DNA of 33,371 nt from an uncultured Bacteroidota bacterium (GTDB lineage: Bacteria > Bacteroidota > Bacteroidia > AKYH767-A > JABDAW01). Within the stretch, counting starts at the first letter, position 1, and each line of letters starts with the position of its first letter. Below the pieces are notes generated by a model that saw only the letters and a program-made list of their open reading frames with translations, was not told where the DNA came from and searched no databases. Both the position numbers and the translations under genes were made by a program. Below are positions 1 to 33,371 of this stretch, piece by piece. The DNA lies in the NCBI GenBank assembly GCA_903911135.1, contig CAIWCG010000127.1:1-33371 (forward strand). Reading direction: 5' to 3'.

Positions 1-183
1 CGAAAAGGCGAAGCCTTTTCGCCGCAGCCAGGTTTCTCATAAAAAGCCGATTCGAAGCAACCTGCCGCCATAACTAGCCCCGATAGTAGCGGCAGCCCGC
101 TGCTTTGTGTCGGCAATGGGGATGCAGCGGCTACAGCGGATAGCGGGACGAAGATGGAACGAGAAGAGAACATAGGCTCCTAA
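1..183 (-). repeat. Structured intergenic element, copy 1, downstream of moaCB; ends in a terminator-like GC hairpin (CGAAAAGGC gaa GCCTTTTCG)
   Basis: Reverse complement closely matches 33063-33256 (shared blocks: GGAGCCTATG, GTCCCGCTATCCGCTGTAGCCGCTGCATCCCCATT, AAAGCAGCGGGCTGCCGCTACTATCGGGGCTAGTT, GGCTGCGGCGAAAAGGCTT). Confidence 0.85.
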
Positions 184-4530: not shown

Positions 4531-4718
4531 CTATTAAAAAATAAATTATGTCATTTCTGAGATTGAATAGGGCCAAAATATCTTGGATGATTCTCCTCCC
4601 GTAGTGTATTTTAGGCTTAATTATGGTATTATATTAGTTGTAAATAACCGATTTAGGGCTAAAAAATCAATTATGTCATCTCCGGAATAACAGAAAAGAC
4701 CTATTTTTTCAATTTAGT

Positions 4719-4928
4719 CATATCTGGTTTCCCAAAACAGGCTAAAACTTTCAATTAAATCGTATCCGGTTTTCTGGAATAGGCTAAAACTTTCCAATAG
4801 GTCGTATCTTGTTTTCCAGAACAGGTTAAAACTTTCTATTAGGTCGTATTCGGTTTTTCGGAATAGGTTGAAACTTTCTATCAAGTCGTATCCAGTTTTC
4901 CGGAATAGGCTAAAACTTTCAATTAAGG
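4719..4928. repeat. Intergenic tandem array, five 42-bp units (e.g. CGTATCCGGTTTTCTGGAATAGGCTAAAACTTTCCAATAGGT)
   Basis: Units at 4719, 4761, 4803, 4845 and 4887 align without gaps with scattered substitutions. Confidence 0.95.
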
Positions 4929-9887: not shown

Positions 9888-10103
9888 CTCCCGAATGACA
9901 ATTTGGACGAGATTTTAGTCATTCGGGAGCTCCCGAATGAACATTTGGACGAGATTTTAGTCAATCGGGAGCTCCCGAATGAACATTCGGACGGGATTTT
10001 AGTCAATCGGAAGCTCCCGAATGAACAATTTGTCGAGATTTTAGTCAATCGGAAGCTCCCGAATGAACAATTAGACAAGATTTTAGTCAATCGGAAGCTC
10101 CCG
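9888..10103. repeat. Intergenic tandem array, five 42-bp hairpin units plus a partial (CTCCCGAATGAC-N18-GTCATTCGGGAG)
   Basis: Units start at 9888, 9930, 9972, 10014 and 10056. The first unit has perfect 12-bp inverted arms; the first junction is a perfect 22-bp palindrome (9919-9940 TCATTCGGGAGCTCCCGAATGA). Confidence 0.95.
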
Positions 10104-10201: not shown

Positions 10202-11173
10202 ATGGAAGAAGACAGAGTAGAATTAGAATCAGAAGAAAAAGTTGTCAACCAAATCACGGAGGCTTATGCCAGGCATTTTGGCGTTCCGGTGCCAGACCGA
10301 TTTCTGGATACGGAGGTGGTGGCCGAACTGAATGAATTCAACACCGATTTGCCCATCAGCATAGCGGCTCGAGATGTGGCCCTGGGCAATGAAACGACTT
10401 ATTTGGCCTTGACAAAAAATGCTCATCTTCCATTGTTCAGGCGCTGTTCGGCGTTTTATAACGAACTGGCAGGTCATGTTGATTGTGGCGATGTGCCGGT
10501 AGGTGCCTTGTCGTTTTTTGGCCTCGACAGCAAGGGCAATCATTTGTCCATGATAACCGATGCCGATCTGCTGTCGGCTTCGGATAAGATTCGTTTGGGA
10601 AACTTGGCCATGATAGCAGCCGGATATGCTCCCAATACTGGCTTTACGGCAGCAAGCATCTTGGCCTTGCGAACGCCTTTTAAAGTCATTGTAGATGAAA
10701 AGGACAACAAGAAACAAACGGCGGCAAATGCCGAAATAGCAACCGCTGCCATGGTGAAGCTGGCGAAAGCTACCGGCGATGAGGTTTTTGCGCAATCAAA
10801 GATACATACACGCAAGATGGAGGTGGGAGCGGCTCGAGATTTCATGCGTACTTATGGCATTCATTTCGAGGCTCCGAAGGTGAAGACCATCATCGGTGGA
10901 GAGGTGTTTTTGCCTACTGCCGAGCATGCCAATGGGGCCGAAGTTCGCATCGGCCCGATAGAAACCAAAAAGGGAAGAGCCAGCCAGGAAGGAGTAGTGG
11001 GCCATACCAACGCCAAGGGGCATTTCGAGGTGATAACCGTGATAGAAGGCGACACGTTTGTGAATGTGCGCATGCTGAATTGCAAGGATGCCCACATTCC
11101 GATAACCATCGTGGCAGGAACAAACCAAACTGCATTGACCATCACACTGGTGGCTGGCACATCGAGCTTGTAG
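10202..11173 (+). CDS. Hypothetical protein with possible C-terminal carboxypeptidase-regulatory-like (beta-sandwich) region
   Basis: 323-aa ORF with no signal peptide. C-terminal GVVGHTNAKGHFEVITVIEGDTFVNVRMLN.. resembles Gly-rich regulatory beta-sandwich repeats; function not recognised. Confidence 0.75.
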   Translation: MEEDRVELESEEKVVNQITEAYARHFGVPVPDRFLDTEVVAELNEFNTDLPISIAARDVALGNETTYLALTKNAHLPLFRRCSAFYNELAGHVDCGDVPVGALSFFGLDSKGNHLSMITDADLLSASDKIRLGNLAMIAAGYAPNTGFTAASILALRTPFKVIVDEKDNKKQTAANAEIATAAMVKLAKATGDEVFAQSKIHTRKMEVGAARDFMRTYGIHFEAPKVKTIIGGEVFLPTAEHANGAEVRIGPIETKKGRASQEGVVGHTNAKGHFEVITVIEGDTFVNVRMLNCKDAHIPITIVAGTNQTALTITLVAGTSSL

Positions 11174-15140: not shown

Positions 15141-15206
15141 TTGGACGATGATAGGCTCGATTATCAATGATGCTTTTATGAATAATCTCACTATTAATTC
15201 AAAAAT

Positions 15207-15269
15207 GGCGATGCCCCTTTGTGAAAGGGCGATGACCCTTTGCGAGGGAGAGATGGGAAAAACACAGTT
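15207..15269. repeat. Short 21-bp tandem array: two clear units plus one degenerate (GGCGATGCCCCTTTGTGAAAG / GGCGATGACCCTTTGCGAGGG / AGAGATGGGAAAAACACAGTT)
   Basis: Direct alignment of adjacent 21-mers. Confidence 0.65.
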
Positions 15270-20065: not shown

Positions 20066-20737
20066 TTAGGTAGTCATCGGCACCACTACCGCATTCATTG
20101 TTACCATTGGGTTCATGCCGTTGGTATTAAATTTCACGGCTCGGCTTCTTACCAACGAACCGCCTGTCAAATGTTCCACTATCACCGATGATTTGGTGGT
20201 TACATCAATGAAAAACACGGATGTTCCTACGGTAAGTTTCAATTGTGCAGGTCCTGATTGTTCAAGTGTGGCGGTCATGTCGGTAGATGTCATGGTAAGG
20301 GTACCATAAGATAGGTCATCGAATCCCCATTCTATCTTTATCTTGTCGCCAAAGTTGGTCATGGTATATTTCAGGTCAACAAAATTGCTTGGAACGCCCA
20401 CTCTTGCAGTGTTGTCGCTCGAAGCCTTCAGGCCTGCAAGGGCAATGGTGCCAGCATTTCCATCAGCTACCAGATCTACATCATTATAATTGTTTTCCAT
20501 CTTTGTTTTGCAGATGGCAAGATGATCCTGATAGGCCTTTTCGGCTACTGGGCCATCATTTTTTAACGATAACAATCCATAAAGAGTTAACGCTGCAGCT
20601 TTAATGACTGGCCCTGTGTTCGGAATTTCGGGGAATGTCAAGGTGTTGGCAATCAATTTGGTGCCATGATTGTTCATGTAGGTAGGCCTTTCAAATTCTG
20701 ACAAGCCATCAAATTCTCTTAATACTTTGTAATACAT
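20066..20737 (-). CDS. Hypothetical protein, possible helical N-terminus plus beta-sandwich C-terminus
   Basis: 223-aa ORF; C-terminal alternating beta pattern (KIKIEWGFDDLSYGTLTMTSTDMTATLEQSGPAQLKLTVGTSVFFIDVTTKSSVIVEHLTGGSLVRSRAVKF). Confidence 0.7.
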   Translation of the reverse strand: MYYKVLREFDGLSEFERPTYMNNHGTKLIANTLTFPEIPNTGPVIKAAALTLYGLLSLKNDGPVAEKAYQDHLAICKTKMENNYNDVDLVADGNAGTIALAGLKASSDNTARVGVPSNFVDLKYTMTNFGDKIKIEWGFDDLSYGTLTMTSTDMTATLEQSGPAQLKLTVGTSVFFIDVTTKSSVIVEHLTGGSLVRSRAVKFNTNGMNPMVTMNAVVVPMTT

Positions 20738-20840
20738 AATTATTGGTTTTTAGTTTTATTGTTAATGATTATTTTTATGTCTGATAAGTTAATGCTGAAT
20801 ATCTTGTATGAATTGTCAAAACTCTGATATGTTTTCCTGC

Positions 20841-21197
20841 GATCTTTGCAGAAGTTTGATTGATGTTTGCAGAGATTTGGCGAATCTTTACAGGTATTTC
20901 ATCAATCTTGCACAAGATTTTATCAATCTCTGCATAAAAACCGTGAATCTCTGCATAAATACTGAGAATCTTGAACAAGAAACTTGGAATCTTGTACAAG
21001 AAACTACCTATTTTATACATAAACCATTCAATCTTGTACAAGATTAGGCTAAACTTGTACAAGATTTGAGGAATCTCCATCAAGATTCGGCAAATCTCTG
21101 CAGAGATTCGTGAAATTTCTGCAAAGATTCGTGAAATCTTGTGCAAGATTGATGAAAAGCCTGTAAACATTGACAAGATGGCTGTCAAGATTGACGA
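20841..21197. repeat. Intergenic tandem array of 17 clear 21-bp units with 16-bp palindromic cores (AATCTTGTACAAGATT / AATCTCTGCAGAGATT)
   Basis: All units start in register (20841 + 21n). Perfect palindromes at 21030-21045 and 21093-21108; more degenerate units extend towards 20799 and 21260. Confidence 0.95.
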
Positions 21198-21264
21198 ACA
21201 ACCTTCACCTTCCATCGAAATGTTTGAATCTTTTGCCTGAATGTCTTGTAAGAATTTCATGGCG

Positions 21265-21320: not shown

Positions 21321-21566
21321 TTATTTATCCCTCCATTTATCCTTTTGCCTCTTTATGGTTGAATGATTCCTTTTGGTATGATTAGGCATCTCGCTGATTT
21401 TTGTGGTCTTGCCAAATTCCTTTTCATTCTCATCAATGATGATCTGTTTCAACAACCTAGCTATATGTAATATAGCATGCTGATCGTTTTGAAAATCCTT
21501 TTTAACTTTCTCGGCACCGCCAAGTTTTTTAATCCATTTTCTGTTGTCATCCGAATAATCTTCCAT
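21321..21566 (-). CDS. Small hypothetical protein
   Basis: 81-aa charged ORF (MEDYSDDNRKWIKKLGGAEKVKKDFQNDQHAILHIARLLKQIIIDENEKEF...); plausible composition, no recognised family. Confidence 0.5.
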   Translation of the reverse strand: MEDYSDDNRKWIKKLGGAEKVKKDFQNDQHAILHIARLLKQIIIDENEKEFGKTTKISEMPNHTKRNHSTIKRQKDKWRDK

Positions 21567-22541: not shown

Positions 22542-24914
22542 TCAGCTTCCGCAAGCCTCGCATCCTTCGGGATCATCTATCGAACAACTGATGGCAGCCA
22601 TGGCTTTGTCCTTGTCTTCACCCACCACATAGTCAATGATTGCAGGCTCGGCTTGTTTCTCCACCGTAAACTTGATGGCATCGGTAGCAGCCTTGGTTCG
22701 AAGATAGTACATGCCTGTTTTGAGTCCCTTTTTCCATGCATAGAAATGCATAGAGGTCAGCTTGCCGAAGTTGGCATCCTGAATGAACAGGTTAAGGCTT
22801 TGACTTTGGCAGATGAAAGCCCCACGGTCGGCAGCCATATCTATGATGGTTCGCTGTTTTATTTCCCACACTGTCTTATAGATGTCCTTGATCAGTTGAG
22901 GAATCTCAGGAATGTCTTGAACAGAGCCATTGGCAGCGATAATCTTGTTCTTTAGGTCGCCATTCCAGATACCCAATTTCACCAGGTCGAGCAGCAGATG
23001 CTTGTTCACCACAATGAATTCGCCACTCAACACACGGCGGCTGTAAATGTTTGAAGTATAAGGCTCGAAACATTCATTGTTTCCAAGAATCTGCGAGGTG
23101 GAAGCGGTAGGCATCGGAGCCAGCAGCAAGGAATTGCGAACACCGTGCTTCTTTACTTCTTCTTTCAGCACATCCCATTCCCATCGGTCGGTAGGTTTCA
23201 CATTCCACATGTCGAATTGGAAAATGCCTTGCGAAACAGGTGAGCCATTGTAGGTTTCATAAGGACCTTCTTTCTTGGCAAGATCCTTGGAAGCCGTCAT
23301 GGCTGCATAATATATGGTTTCGAAGATTTCTCGGTTGAGCATTCGTGCATCTTCGCTCTCGAAAGGGTATTTCAACAGCATGAAGGTGTCAGCCAATCCT
23401 TGAACACCGATGCCTATCGGGCGATGACGCATGTTGCTTTTTCGAGCCTCTTCAACAGGGTAATAATTTACATCGATGATCTTGTTTAGATTCTTCGTAA
23501 TCGTATAAGCCACATCAAACAATCGCTGATGATCGAATTTGCCATCGATTACAAAGCGAGAAAGCGCGATGGAAGCAAGATTGCATACCGCAATCTCGTC
23601 AGGAGCTGTGTATTCTACTATTTCAGTGCAGAGATTGGAGCTCTTTATTGTGCCGAGATTCTTTTGATTTGACTTCTCATTGCAAGCATCTTTATAAAGC
23701 ATGTAAGGTGTGCCGGTTTCTATCTGACTTTCCATGATGGCAAACCAAAGATCTTGTGCCTTGATTGTTTTTCTTGCCTTGCCATCGTTTTCATATCGGG
23801 TATAAAGTTGCTCGAACTCCATGCCATAGCAATCTGCCAACCCAGGACACTCATTAGGACAGAACAATGACCAATCACCGTTCTCCTCAACTCGTTTCAT
23901 GAACAGATCAGGTATCCATAGGGCAAAGAAAAGGTCACGGGCACGCAATTCTTCTTTACCATGATTCTTTTTAAGCTCAAGAAATTCGAAAATGTCGGCA
24001 TGCCATGGCTCAAGATAGATGGCGAAAGAACCTTTACGCTTTCCACCGCCCTGATCTACATAACGCGCTGTATCATTAAACACTTTCAACATCGGAACAA
24101 TGCCATTGGATGTTCCATTGGTGCCACGGATATAAGAACCGGTAGCACGGATGTTATGAATGCTTAAGCCTATTCCCCCAGCCGACTGAGATATCTTGGC
24201 ACAGTTCTTCAATGTATCATAAATACCATCAATGCTGTCATTCTTCATCGTCAATAAAAAGCAAGAAGACAATTGTGGCTTCGGAGTTCCTGCATTGAAT
24301 AAAGTAGGTGTGGCATGAGTAAACCAACGTTCACTCATCAAGTTATAGGTTTCTATGGCCGAGTCAATATCTTCCTTATGAATACCGATTGCAACGCGCA
24401 TCAACATGTGTTGAGGACGCTCTGCCACCTTTCCATCCACCCTTAACAGGTAGGATTTCTCCAAAGTCTTGAAACCGAAGTAATCATAACCGAAATCGCG
24501 ATCATAGATGATGGTACTATCAAGCAGCTCCGCATTCTTTTCGATGATTGCATATACTTCATCAGAAAGCATAGGGGCCTTCTTGCCAGTCTTTTGATCA
24601 ATGTATAGATACATCTCCTTCATTGTTTCAGAGAAGGACTTCTTGGTATTCTTATGAAGGTTGCTTATGGCAATTCTTGATGCCAACAGTGCATAATCGG
24701 GATGCTTGGTGGTTAATGATGCCGCAATTTCTGCTGCAAGGTTATCCAAATCAGAGGTTGAAACCCCATCATAGATTCCTTCAATGACCTTTTGGGCAAC
24801 GCTTAACGGTTCTACATGTTCAGGATTCAAGCCATAGCATAACTTCTGAATCCGAGCTGTCACTTTATCGAATTTGACGGACTCACTCTTGCCGTCTCTT
24901 TTAATTACATACAT
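22542..24914 (-). CDS. nrdA: Ribonucleoside-diphosphate reductase subunit alpha (class Ia)
   Basis: ATP-cone N-terminus, [54 protein letters not shown]-terminal CEACGS. Confidence 0.97.
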
Positions 24915-24953
24915 GATATTTGATTTTCGTTAGTGGATGTTGTATTTTGATGC

Positions 24954-25919
24954 TTAGAAATCCTCGTCCATCTTGAATACGTTCTGGTCTTTGGTGGACA
25001 TTACACCAGCCTTTTGGTATTCACCGACACGTTTCTCGAAGAAATTGGTCTTGCCCTGCAAGGATATAAGTTCCATGAAGTCGAAAGGATTAGAAGCATT
25101 GTATATTTTCTTCTGTCCCAAGGCAACCAACAACCTATCAGCCACAAATTCAATGTATTGCGACATCATCTTGGAATTCATCCCAATCAAATCAACAGGT
25201 AAGGCGGTAGAAACGAATTCTTGTTCAATGTTTACCGCATCCCTTATCATCTCCACAACTATTTCCTTGTCCAATTTGTTCTCCAGCATGCCATAAAGCA
25301 AACAGGCAAAGTCGCAATGCAAACCTTCATCACGAGAAATGAGTTCGTTCGAGAAACTCAAGCCAGGCATCAGTCCTCTTTTCTTCAACCAGAAGATAGA
25401 ACAGAAACTGCCAGAGAAGAAAATCCCCTCTACGGCTGCAAATGCAATCAATCTTTCCGCAAAACTCCCCTTGCTTATCCAACGCATAGCCCATTCCGCC
25501 TTTTTCTTCACACATGGCACCGTTTCTATTGCGTTAAACAGGCGGTTTTTCTCCGCCGTATCCTTGATATATGTATCAATCAACAACGAATACGTCTCCG
25601 AGTGGATATTCTCCATCATGATTTGAAATCCATAGAAACAACGGGCCTCCGGCAACTGAACTTCTTTCATGAAATTGACAGCCAGGTTCTCATTCACTAT
25701 ACCATCGCTGGCAGCAAAGAAAGCCAACACGTTAGTGATGAAATAACGCTCACCATCATTCATCCTATCCCAATCTTTTTGGTCTTGCGACAGGTCTATT
25801 TCCTCCGCAGTCCAGAAACTCGCCTCATGTTTCTTGTACATCTCCCAAATCTTTGGGTAGTTTATCGGAAAGAGCACAAAACGCTCATTATTTTCTTCCA
25901 GTAATACTTCTTTTTTCAT
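24954..25919 (-). CDS. nrdB: Ribonucleoside-diphosphate reductase subunit beta
   Basis: [76 protein letters not shown]. Confidence 0.96.
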
Positions 25920-27508: not shown

Positions 27509-28447
27509 TTATTTATAGACAACTACCTTAACTATCCCGTCTTTTAAAGGATTTAAGCTAACTACAACACAAGCGCTGTGGCCTTTGCCCATCACCAGTT
27601 CGCCATAGGCAGGAAGCTTCTCGCCAGGGGAGTCGGTAGTCTGTCCCTTATATACCATCAGGTCAAAATCTACCATGCTTGTCATGATGCTGTTAAGAAC
27701 AATATGGTGTAATATCTTTTCGCTCGCCATATCTATGGTACTTATCTGGTCTCTCTCTTTTGATGGCGCATCGGAGGTGTCAAAACCATAATCGCCCAAT
27801 GTTCTGGCGTCATCCTGGTGGCGACTGTGCAGAAAATTGGCGAATTTATGAATGTTGATCTCCGGAATCGACATGTCCTCGTTTCTTGCCGCTGTCTCGC
27901 TTTCCGAATCTCTGAAATTTTGCTTCGAATCGTTCTTCTGCGTCACCGCACCAGTCAGTTGGGTGGTCAATGTCGCCATCACCCAGCCACGCTCCACCAG
28001 CAAGGGCTCTATCGAAGCCGTGCCTGCCGCAAAGGTGAGGTAATGCGTGTTTATGGCTTGAAACAAAGTTATCTGATCGGCCTGTGTGGTAGGGAAATGT
28101 GCCGCTCCACTAGCGCTGAAATCGAATCCCCAGTCGTTTCCATTGATATAATTTGGGGCATTAAGGTTTTTCAATTCTTGAGAAATGGCTCTCGACACGG
28201 TATTTATCTTGTCGAACACCACATGGGCCTCGGCATTGTTCTTTTCGCCCAATCGGAACAGCTTTGCGCTCGCTATTTCGTGCACCAGAGCCGCCTCTGC
28301 ATTGGTTACATCGGCATCCACATCAATACTTTGGGCAATGATGAACTTGGCACACTCGCCACCTACGCCATCGGTGGTCACTTTTTCCTTTATGGCCTTG
28401 CTTAGGGTAATTCTTCCTGTTGTTGTTGTTGGTAAATCGATTTCCAT
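27509..28447 (-). CDS. Hypothetical protein
   Basis: ORF from ATG 28447 (MEIDLPTTTTGRITLSKAIKEKV...). The -7 box at 28487-28494 excludes the longer ORF start at 28513. Confidence 0.7.
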   Translation of the reverse strand: MEIDLPTTTTGRITLSKAIKEKVTTDGVGGECAKFIIAQSIDVDADVTNAEAALVHEIASAKLFRLGEKNNAEAHVVFDKINTVSRAISQELKNLNAPNYINGNDWGFDFSASGAAHFPTTQADQITLFQAINTHYLTFAAGTASIEPLLVERGWVMATLTTQLTGAVTQKNDSKQNFRDSESETAARNEDMSIPEINIHKFANFLHSRHQDDARTLGDYGFDTSDAPSKERDQISTIDMASEKILHHIVLNSIMTSMVDFDLMVYKGQTTDSPGEKLPAYGELVMGKGHSACVVVSLNPLKDGIVKVVVYK

Positions 28448-28486
28448 TTCAGTTTTTTTTAAGGTTATTATTTTTATATATCGATG

Positions 28487-28494
28487 CAAAGATA
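28487..28494 (-). promoter_or_regulatory. -7 box TATCTTTG for CDS 27509-28447
   Basis: CAAAGATA on +; reverse complement GTTATCTTTGCATCG. Confidence 0.55.
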
Positions 28495-28555
28495 ACATTC
28501 TGCGTGACATCACTATTTATTTCATGCATATATATATAGCCACCAAAAAAAATGA

Positions 28556-33062: not shown

Positions 33063-33256
33063 TTCTTTTAAGGAGCCTATGGTTTCTTCTCGTATCAAGG
33101 TGCGTCCCGCTATCCGCTGTAGCCGCTGCATCCCCATTACCGAAACAAAGCAGCGGGCTGCCGCTACTATCGGGGCTAGTTTTGGCGGCAGGTAGCTTCG
33201 AAGCGGCTTTTGGCGAGTAACGTGGCTGCGGCGAAAAGGCTTTGCCTTTTCGCCGC
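33063..33256 (+). repeat. Structured intergenic element, copy 2, downstream of purB; ends in perfect hairpin GCGGCGAAAAGGC ttt GCCTTTTCGCCGC
   Basis: Near-identical to the reverse complement of 1-183. Confidence 0.85.
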
Positions 33257-33319: not shown

Positions 33320-33371
33320 CATCCATTTAACCCTCCGCAGCATCCATTTAACCCTCCGCAGCATCCATTTA
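33320..33371. repeat. 21-bp tandem array CATCCATTTAACCCTCCGCAG, two exact units plus a partial, cut by the window end
   Basis: 33320-33340 and 33341-33361 identical; 33362-33371 continues the pattern. Confidence 0.9.

Follow-up and report, generated by a model that had tools for sequence, protein, structure and literature searches.

The window, by which we mean the whole stretch of DNA that was analysed (33,371 nucleotides), is contig C127 of G000, a draft genome of an uncultured Bacteroidota (3.80 Mb, 296 contigs, 98% complete). It was compared with sequences of two other species of the same genus, G001 and G002, and of a sister genus, G003. G001 is the MAG 'uncultured Bacteroidetes bacterium Umea1_bin-1585' (locus L163), and from such genome names we infer that G000 and G001 are freshwater organisms. 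The features of the window that matter here are as follows.

72–154, plus strand: Flavo-1 element
4707–4927, unstranded: second array of the class, period 42 bp, with an unrelated unit around the core ATCCGGTTTTCCGGAAT and no significant stem coverage over all units
9888–10103, unstranded: third array of the class, period 42 bp, with an unrelated unit that includes the palindrome TCATTCGGGAGCTCCCGAATGA
15203–15255, unstranded: short intergenic stretch of 21-bp tandem duplication, about two copies, possibly a young or vestigial array
20066–20737, minus strand: flanking gene, 223 aa, no Pfam match, syntenic in G002
20775–21260, minus strand: 161-codon open frame across the reported array
20841–21197, unstranded: the reported array, 17 units of 21 bp, each a 16-bp dyad core plus a 5-bp spacer
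21321–21566, minus strand: small flanking gene, 81 aa, syntenic in G002, anchoring the other side of the array
33099–33181, minus strand: Flavo-1 element
33320–33371, unstranded: start of a further 21-bp array, cut by the contig end and lying 140 bp from a Flavo-1 element

The array at 20841–21197 is real, as the original prediction had it, and all of its 17 units fit an exact 21-bp register. The two 16-bp cores singled out there, AATCTTGTACAAGATT (21030) and AATCTCTGCAGAGATT (21093), are indeed perfect palindromes, and the six positions at which they differ form three compensating pairs. Over the whole array, 92 of 136 symmetric cells were Watson-Crick paired, compared with a mean of 79.6 when the 3' halves were reshuffled among units (P = 0.0012), and covariation across units was also found, with 14 doubly changed yet paired cells against 8.3 expected (P = 0.005); both P values are optimistic, as related units were treated as independent. 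The proposed dyad axis ranked best of all 42, with 0.68 of cells paired (0.54 for the next axis, 0.28 on average), while the units at the array edges are degenerate and retain 2–5 of 8 pairs. The suggestion that the units lie on one DNA face fits the strict register of multiples of 21 bp (21n).

From the preserved symmetry it was proposed that the array may consist of dimer-binding operators, and in the form considered here each such array would be bound on one face of the DNA by a dimeric repressor of its own and would control the neighbouring genes. Palindromes of 16 bp in phase, with compensated changes, speak for such a reading, as does the core CTTGTACAAG that three arrays of G000 have in common, namely the reported one at 20841–21197 and those at 11121–11404 of contig C111 and 9839–10083 of contig C273. 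The likeness among these three is confined to the array itself.

The reported array turned out to belong to a large class. Our counts, which cover 25% of G000, gave 140 arrays, and by extrapolation there should be about 550–560 in the genome, or roughly one per 5 kb. Tandem Repeats Finder, run on 721 kb of G000, returned 137 arrays whose units differ and whose periods are nearly all 21, 42, 63, 84, 105 or 126. With an independent autocorrelation detector, 149 of 159 periodic segments in 953 kb of G000 and 34 of 38 in G001 (179 kb) were 21n, while in G002 such periods are mixed with others. After merging, the intergenic arrays of at least 60 bp in G000 were 21n in 137 of 141 cases (the remaining four have periods of 54, 62, 64 and 125), whereas only 9 of the 25 intergenic repeats shorter than 60 bp were. 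Lengths of 60–99 bp are rare and the majority of arrays exceed 150 bp, with a median of 209 bp, or about ten units. As long arrays are nearly all 21n and short duplications are of mixed period, it seems that almost only the 21-bp register attains full size. At 10.5 bp per turn of the helix, a constant whole-number period can keep phase only if it spans an even number of turns, and the observed periods match this expectation.

The main rival of the reading that we finally prefer is that the arrays are non-adaptive satellites, produced by a lineage-specific quirk of replication or repair that duplicates intergenic DNA in 21-bp steps, in which case they would be an unusual minisatellite. We consider this rather unlikely. 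The restriction of long arrays to 21n, when short duplications come in many periods and sizes of 60–99 bp are rare, is unlike free slippage. Even this reading would be notable, because we know of no mutational process that makes nearly all long arrays 21n while leaving short duplications unrestricted.

The units follow each other directly at 21 bp, without unique spacers, and adjacent copies mismatch at about 12% of positions. Indels are few, at 0.058 per mismatch in arrays compared with 0.154 in dispersed Flavo-1 copies of the same genome. Unit identity is higher at a lag of 42 (0.80) than at a lag of 21 (0.66), so that in many arrays two diverged 21-bp units take turns. There was no sub-period of 7 bp within the 21-bp units (lag-7 excess 0.007 ± 0.006) and none of 10–11 bp. 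Most units are unique to their locus, although 38 of 9730 pairs of G000 arrays share units, against 5–10 expected by chance; in these the likeness mostly stops at the array borders and occurs in either orientation. Array sequence is thus copied from one locus to another at times.

Several other accounts were considered and rejected. An assembly artefact is contradicted by the finding that arrays contain only 13 of the 145 natural contig ends, and by the recurrence of the pattern in the separately assembled G001. Absence of a lag-7 signal speaks against an origin from heptamers, and the units have no outstanding 10.5-bp harmonic of the kind expected for curvature or bending. The DNA flanking the arrays shows hardly any 21-bp periodicity, and hence does not look like decayed array. 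A CRISPR array should have identical repeats and unique spacers, which were not found.

Symmetry proved to be a property of the class as well. Perfect short stems account for 17.4% of array bases in real units, compared with 6.0% after column permutation (which does not keep dinucleotides), while array-free gaps exceeded their own shuffles only slightly (0.133 versus 0.112). Dyad-symmetric units in helical phase are present at the reported locus and, by stem coverage at P ≤ 0.04, significant in 38% of arrays genome-wide, while roughly one third lack any excess. A dyad test gave a weak result on 21-bp consensus units, whereas the stem test on real units gave a strong one. Among 52 dyad-rich arrays, double changes that keep pairing outnumbered those that break it by a ratio of 1.25, while in 20 column-permuted sets with re-optimised axes the ratio averaged 0.88 and did not exceed 0.98. 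From stem coverage and this ratio, we conclude that dyad symmetry is widespread and compensated, but not universal. The idea that symmetry rather than sequence is preserved is therefore supported, and it extends beyond the locus for which it was put forward. One should bear in mind that hairpins promote slippage and template switching, which counts for the satellite reading: hairpin units would slip most easily and template switching would perfect palindromes, giving both symmetry and compensation without any function.

Another possibility is that the units fold in transcripts, and that the arrays would act in termination, in mRNA stability or as protein-binding RNAs. Arrays do fold more stably than their column-permuted versions (mean z about −1.8). 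On the sense strand between co-directional genes, G-U exceeds A-C (14 arrays versus 3; 81 versus 47 cells), and the sense MFE is lower in 35 of 52 arrays, which gives this reading weak support. However, a G-U to A-C ratio near 1.24 is expected from base composition alone, and permutation z-scores did not differ significantly between the strands (P = 0.09). There is also no preference for the 3' or 5' side of genes, and RNA has no need of a 21-bp register. Of the hairpins proposed at the outset, RNA hairpins are thus a possibility for which the evidence of strand asymmetry is weak, and we regard a role in RNA as quite improbable.

For the position of arrays, genes were called with our own simple codon-usage caller. 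Arrays are almost all intergenic, few being genic, and the gaps that hold them are co-directional, convergent and divergent in 54, 22 and 18 cases, in proportions roughly like those of other gaps (159, 50 and 75). They sit in mid-gap, at a median of 197 bp from the upstream stop and 191 bp from the downstream start, and we found no bias toward the 5' or 3' sides of genes or toward gene starts. The idea that arrays mark only the ends of transcription units was rejected, as co-directional gaps carry them at the expected frequency.

Arrays are also evenly spaced. In G000 the mean spacing is 5.6 kb with a CV of 0.43, compared with 0.76–0.86 when arrays were placed at random in gaps or along the contig (none of 1000 placements was as even), and only 5% of spacings are below 2 kb, against 31–34% under random placement. 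In G001, where regions were picked by homology and not randomly, the mean is 4.3 kb, the CV 0.33, and no spacing is below 2 kb. Long gaps in 69 outgroup loci are spaced less evenly than arrays (CV 0.55–0.67, 21–34% below 2 kb). Array spacing and long-gap spacing are nevertheless not independent, as most gaps longer than 400 bp hold an array. Such evenness, with very few pairs closer than 2 kb, would not be expected if satellites were born at random.

Comparison of homologous loci, which the original prediction had called for, was informative. In G002 the locus orthologous to the reported array has the same flanking genes (72–78% identity) and a gap of similar length (687 versus 708 bp), and this gap holds an array of unrelated but palindromic units around TTTTCCCTGGAAAA, which again supports preservation of symmetry over that of sequence. 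In two further anchored gaps, compared between G001 and G002, arrays are present in both genomes with differing units, although one of these gaps has only one closely anchored flank; in a fourth, G002 has an array and G000 has none. Such co-occurrence is partly expected, since most long gaps carry arrays, and the sample is small. No 21n arrays were seen in G003 (45 kb) or in about 250 kb from elsewhere in the order. In a set of 80 named Bacteroidota loci, they occur in scattered MAGs (L170, L178, L181, L213 and L216); those at L178 3887–4067, L213 2247–3059 and L216 5714–5931, with periods of 21 or 42 bp, belong to MAGs from outside the genus. The near restriction of arrays to gaps, their fast turnover, some copying between loci and their absence from the sampled sister genus all speak for satellites.

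It is at this point that the operator reading becomes very improbable as a general account. A single dimeric protein is unsupported in general, as there are some 550 loci, mostly with different palindromes or none, and more than half of the arrays have no significant dyad. Nor is there a bias toward gene starts. Replacement of the motif at the orthologous G002 locus would, moreover, require a co-evolving regulator for each array. Taken as a whole, the original interpretation is partly supported.

We also considered whether arrays could encode heptapeptide repeats of small proteins. Read from an orthologous ATG, the frame across the reported array is open both in G000 and in G002, and its first residues are similar in the two; arrays have on average 2.46 open frames of six compared with 1.90 in permuted arrays, stop triplets being slightly depleted. 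On the other hand, all six frames are closed in 14% of arrays, the frame across the reported array has a low coding score, and a coding function would be served by any multiple of 3 and not by 21n alone. In general, we regard this explanation as highly unlikely.

Flavo-1 (Rfam RF01705) adjoins 31 of the 140 G000 arrays at a median distance of about 140 bp. Its RNA strand is directed away from the array in all 39 of 39 cases, and eight arrays are flanked by an inverted pair. Besides the two copies in the window, elements lie at loci L023, L027, L029, L043, L052, L109, L110 and L112; a pattern search of the G001 and G002 samples found none. Mobilisation by a RAYT was rejected, as the sole Y1_Tnp region of G000 is broken and has stop codons, and so was an expansion of HU/IHF, of which there are two copies, the same as in relatives. 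No candidate protein that would read the arrays was found.

We judge it most likely, although tentatively and from sequence comparison, that the reported array belongs to a set of several hundred intergenic elements with a DNA-level role in structuring the chromosome. Twenty-one base pairs make two turns of B-DNA, so that each unit presents the same face. A low-specificity architectural protein or topoisomerase, or supercoiled DNA itself, might then read the phased and often symmetric repeats, and each array might serve as an anchor, an insulator or a supercoil sink. What selection would maintain is that an array is present and in register, and in many cases that it is symmetric; its letters would be replaced through slippage and through copying from one array to another. 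Constraint does seem to lie on register, and in about 40% of arrays on symmetry, rather than on sequence. This DNA-level role is supported by the dominance of 21n among long arrays, the low indel rate and the even spacing in G000 and G001, as well as by stem coverage, compensated changes and the array of unrelated units at the orthologous G002 locus; occurrence in gaps of every orientation and in mid-gap suits it better than a role in UTRs. Against it are the third or so of arrays that are stemless, the missing 10.5-bp bending signature, the unexpanded HU/IHF, the tie between array and gap spacing, the few loci behind positional conservation and the lack of a candidate reader. It is possible, though doubtful, that we see a sequence-free, phase-coded organisation of the chromosome, in which elements at even intervals would be recognised by helical register and symmetry, the locus and the 21-bp register persisting through replacement of the letters.

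Iterons and phased operator or centromere repeats are direct repeats of about 20 bp in helical phase, bound on one DNA face. They differ from the present class in that they comprise one or a few loci, one sequence and one cognate protein, compared with some 550 loci of differing sequence here. Tandem repeats of the archaeal Borg elements resemble our arrays in their many arrays per replicon, nearly all-unique sequences, fast turnover, intergenic copies and absence from relatives. They are, however, perfect, A-rich, located in ORFs in about half of cases and of variable unit length, with only 14–38% of intergenic unit lengths divisible by 3 (PMC9879509), whereas the G000 copies are imperfect (about 12% mismatch), fixed at 21n and almost all intergenic. 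REP/BIME elements are likewise palindromic, intergenic and present in hundreds per genome, with proposed roles in supercoiling, termination or mRNA stability, but the REPs of a genome have a sequence in common and are associated with RAYT transposases (PMC3733652, PMC2817692), while most G000 loci have none in common and Y1_Tnp is present only as a broken copy. Intergenic heptamer repeats (the SPADE survey, PMC6344855; TAACTGA repeats, PMC4679880) are also abundant short-period arrays, and 21 is a multiple of 7, but the G000 units have neither a lag-7 signal nor a common sequence. Descriptions of 21n arrays in Bacteroidota were not found in the open-access literature, and no described system that combines these features is known to us or was found. 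Each of the nearest systems (Borg, heptamer, REP/BIME) departs from the present arrays in at least one tested defining feature. If selection holds register and spacing but not sequence, such a class of elements would be invisible to homology searches, and it would offer a natural test of whether phase and symmetry alone can write the architecture of a bacterial chromosome.

Some minor observations should be added. G002 also has arrays of 7 and 14 bp, which are rare in G000, for instance AGTGAAT repeated 37 times (L131 3716–3973). In one orthologous gap, the arrays of G001 (L126 7830–8050) and G002 (L132 8145–8410) match in opposite orientation, and the former seems to flip to its own reverse complement half-way. 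Three proteins of 220–335 aa without a clear Pfam family are encoded in the window (20066–20737, 10202–11173 and 27509–28513), and arrays lie immediately upstream of two of them. Paralogs of the first are present on contigs C184, C176 and C33, and a search of named genomes with the flanking gene gave no match. In a small sample, arrays often seem to sit at breaks of gene order. Neighbour tests for loss of gene order across arrays gave 0 of 15 against 22 of 63, but we draw no claim from them, as they are few and miss at least two loci that are conserved by DNA anchors. Finally, nrdA and nrdB are adjacent in G000 (window 24914–24954), while in G001 (L117 5825–10964) and G002 (L116 3803–7430) they lie 3.6–5 kb apart, with an array beside nrdB.
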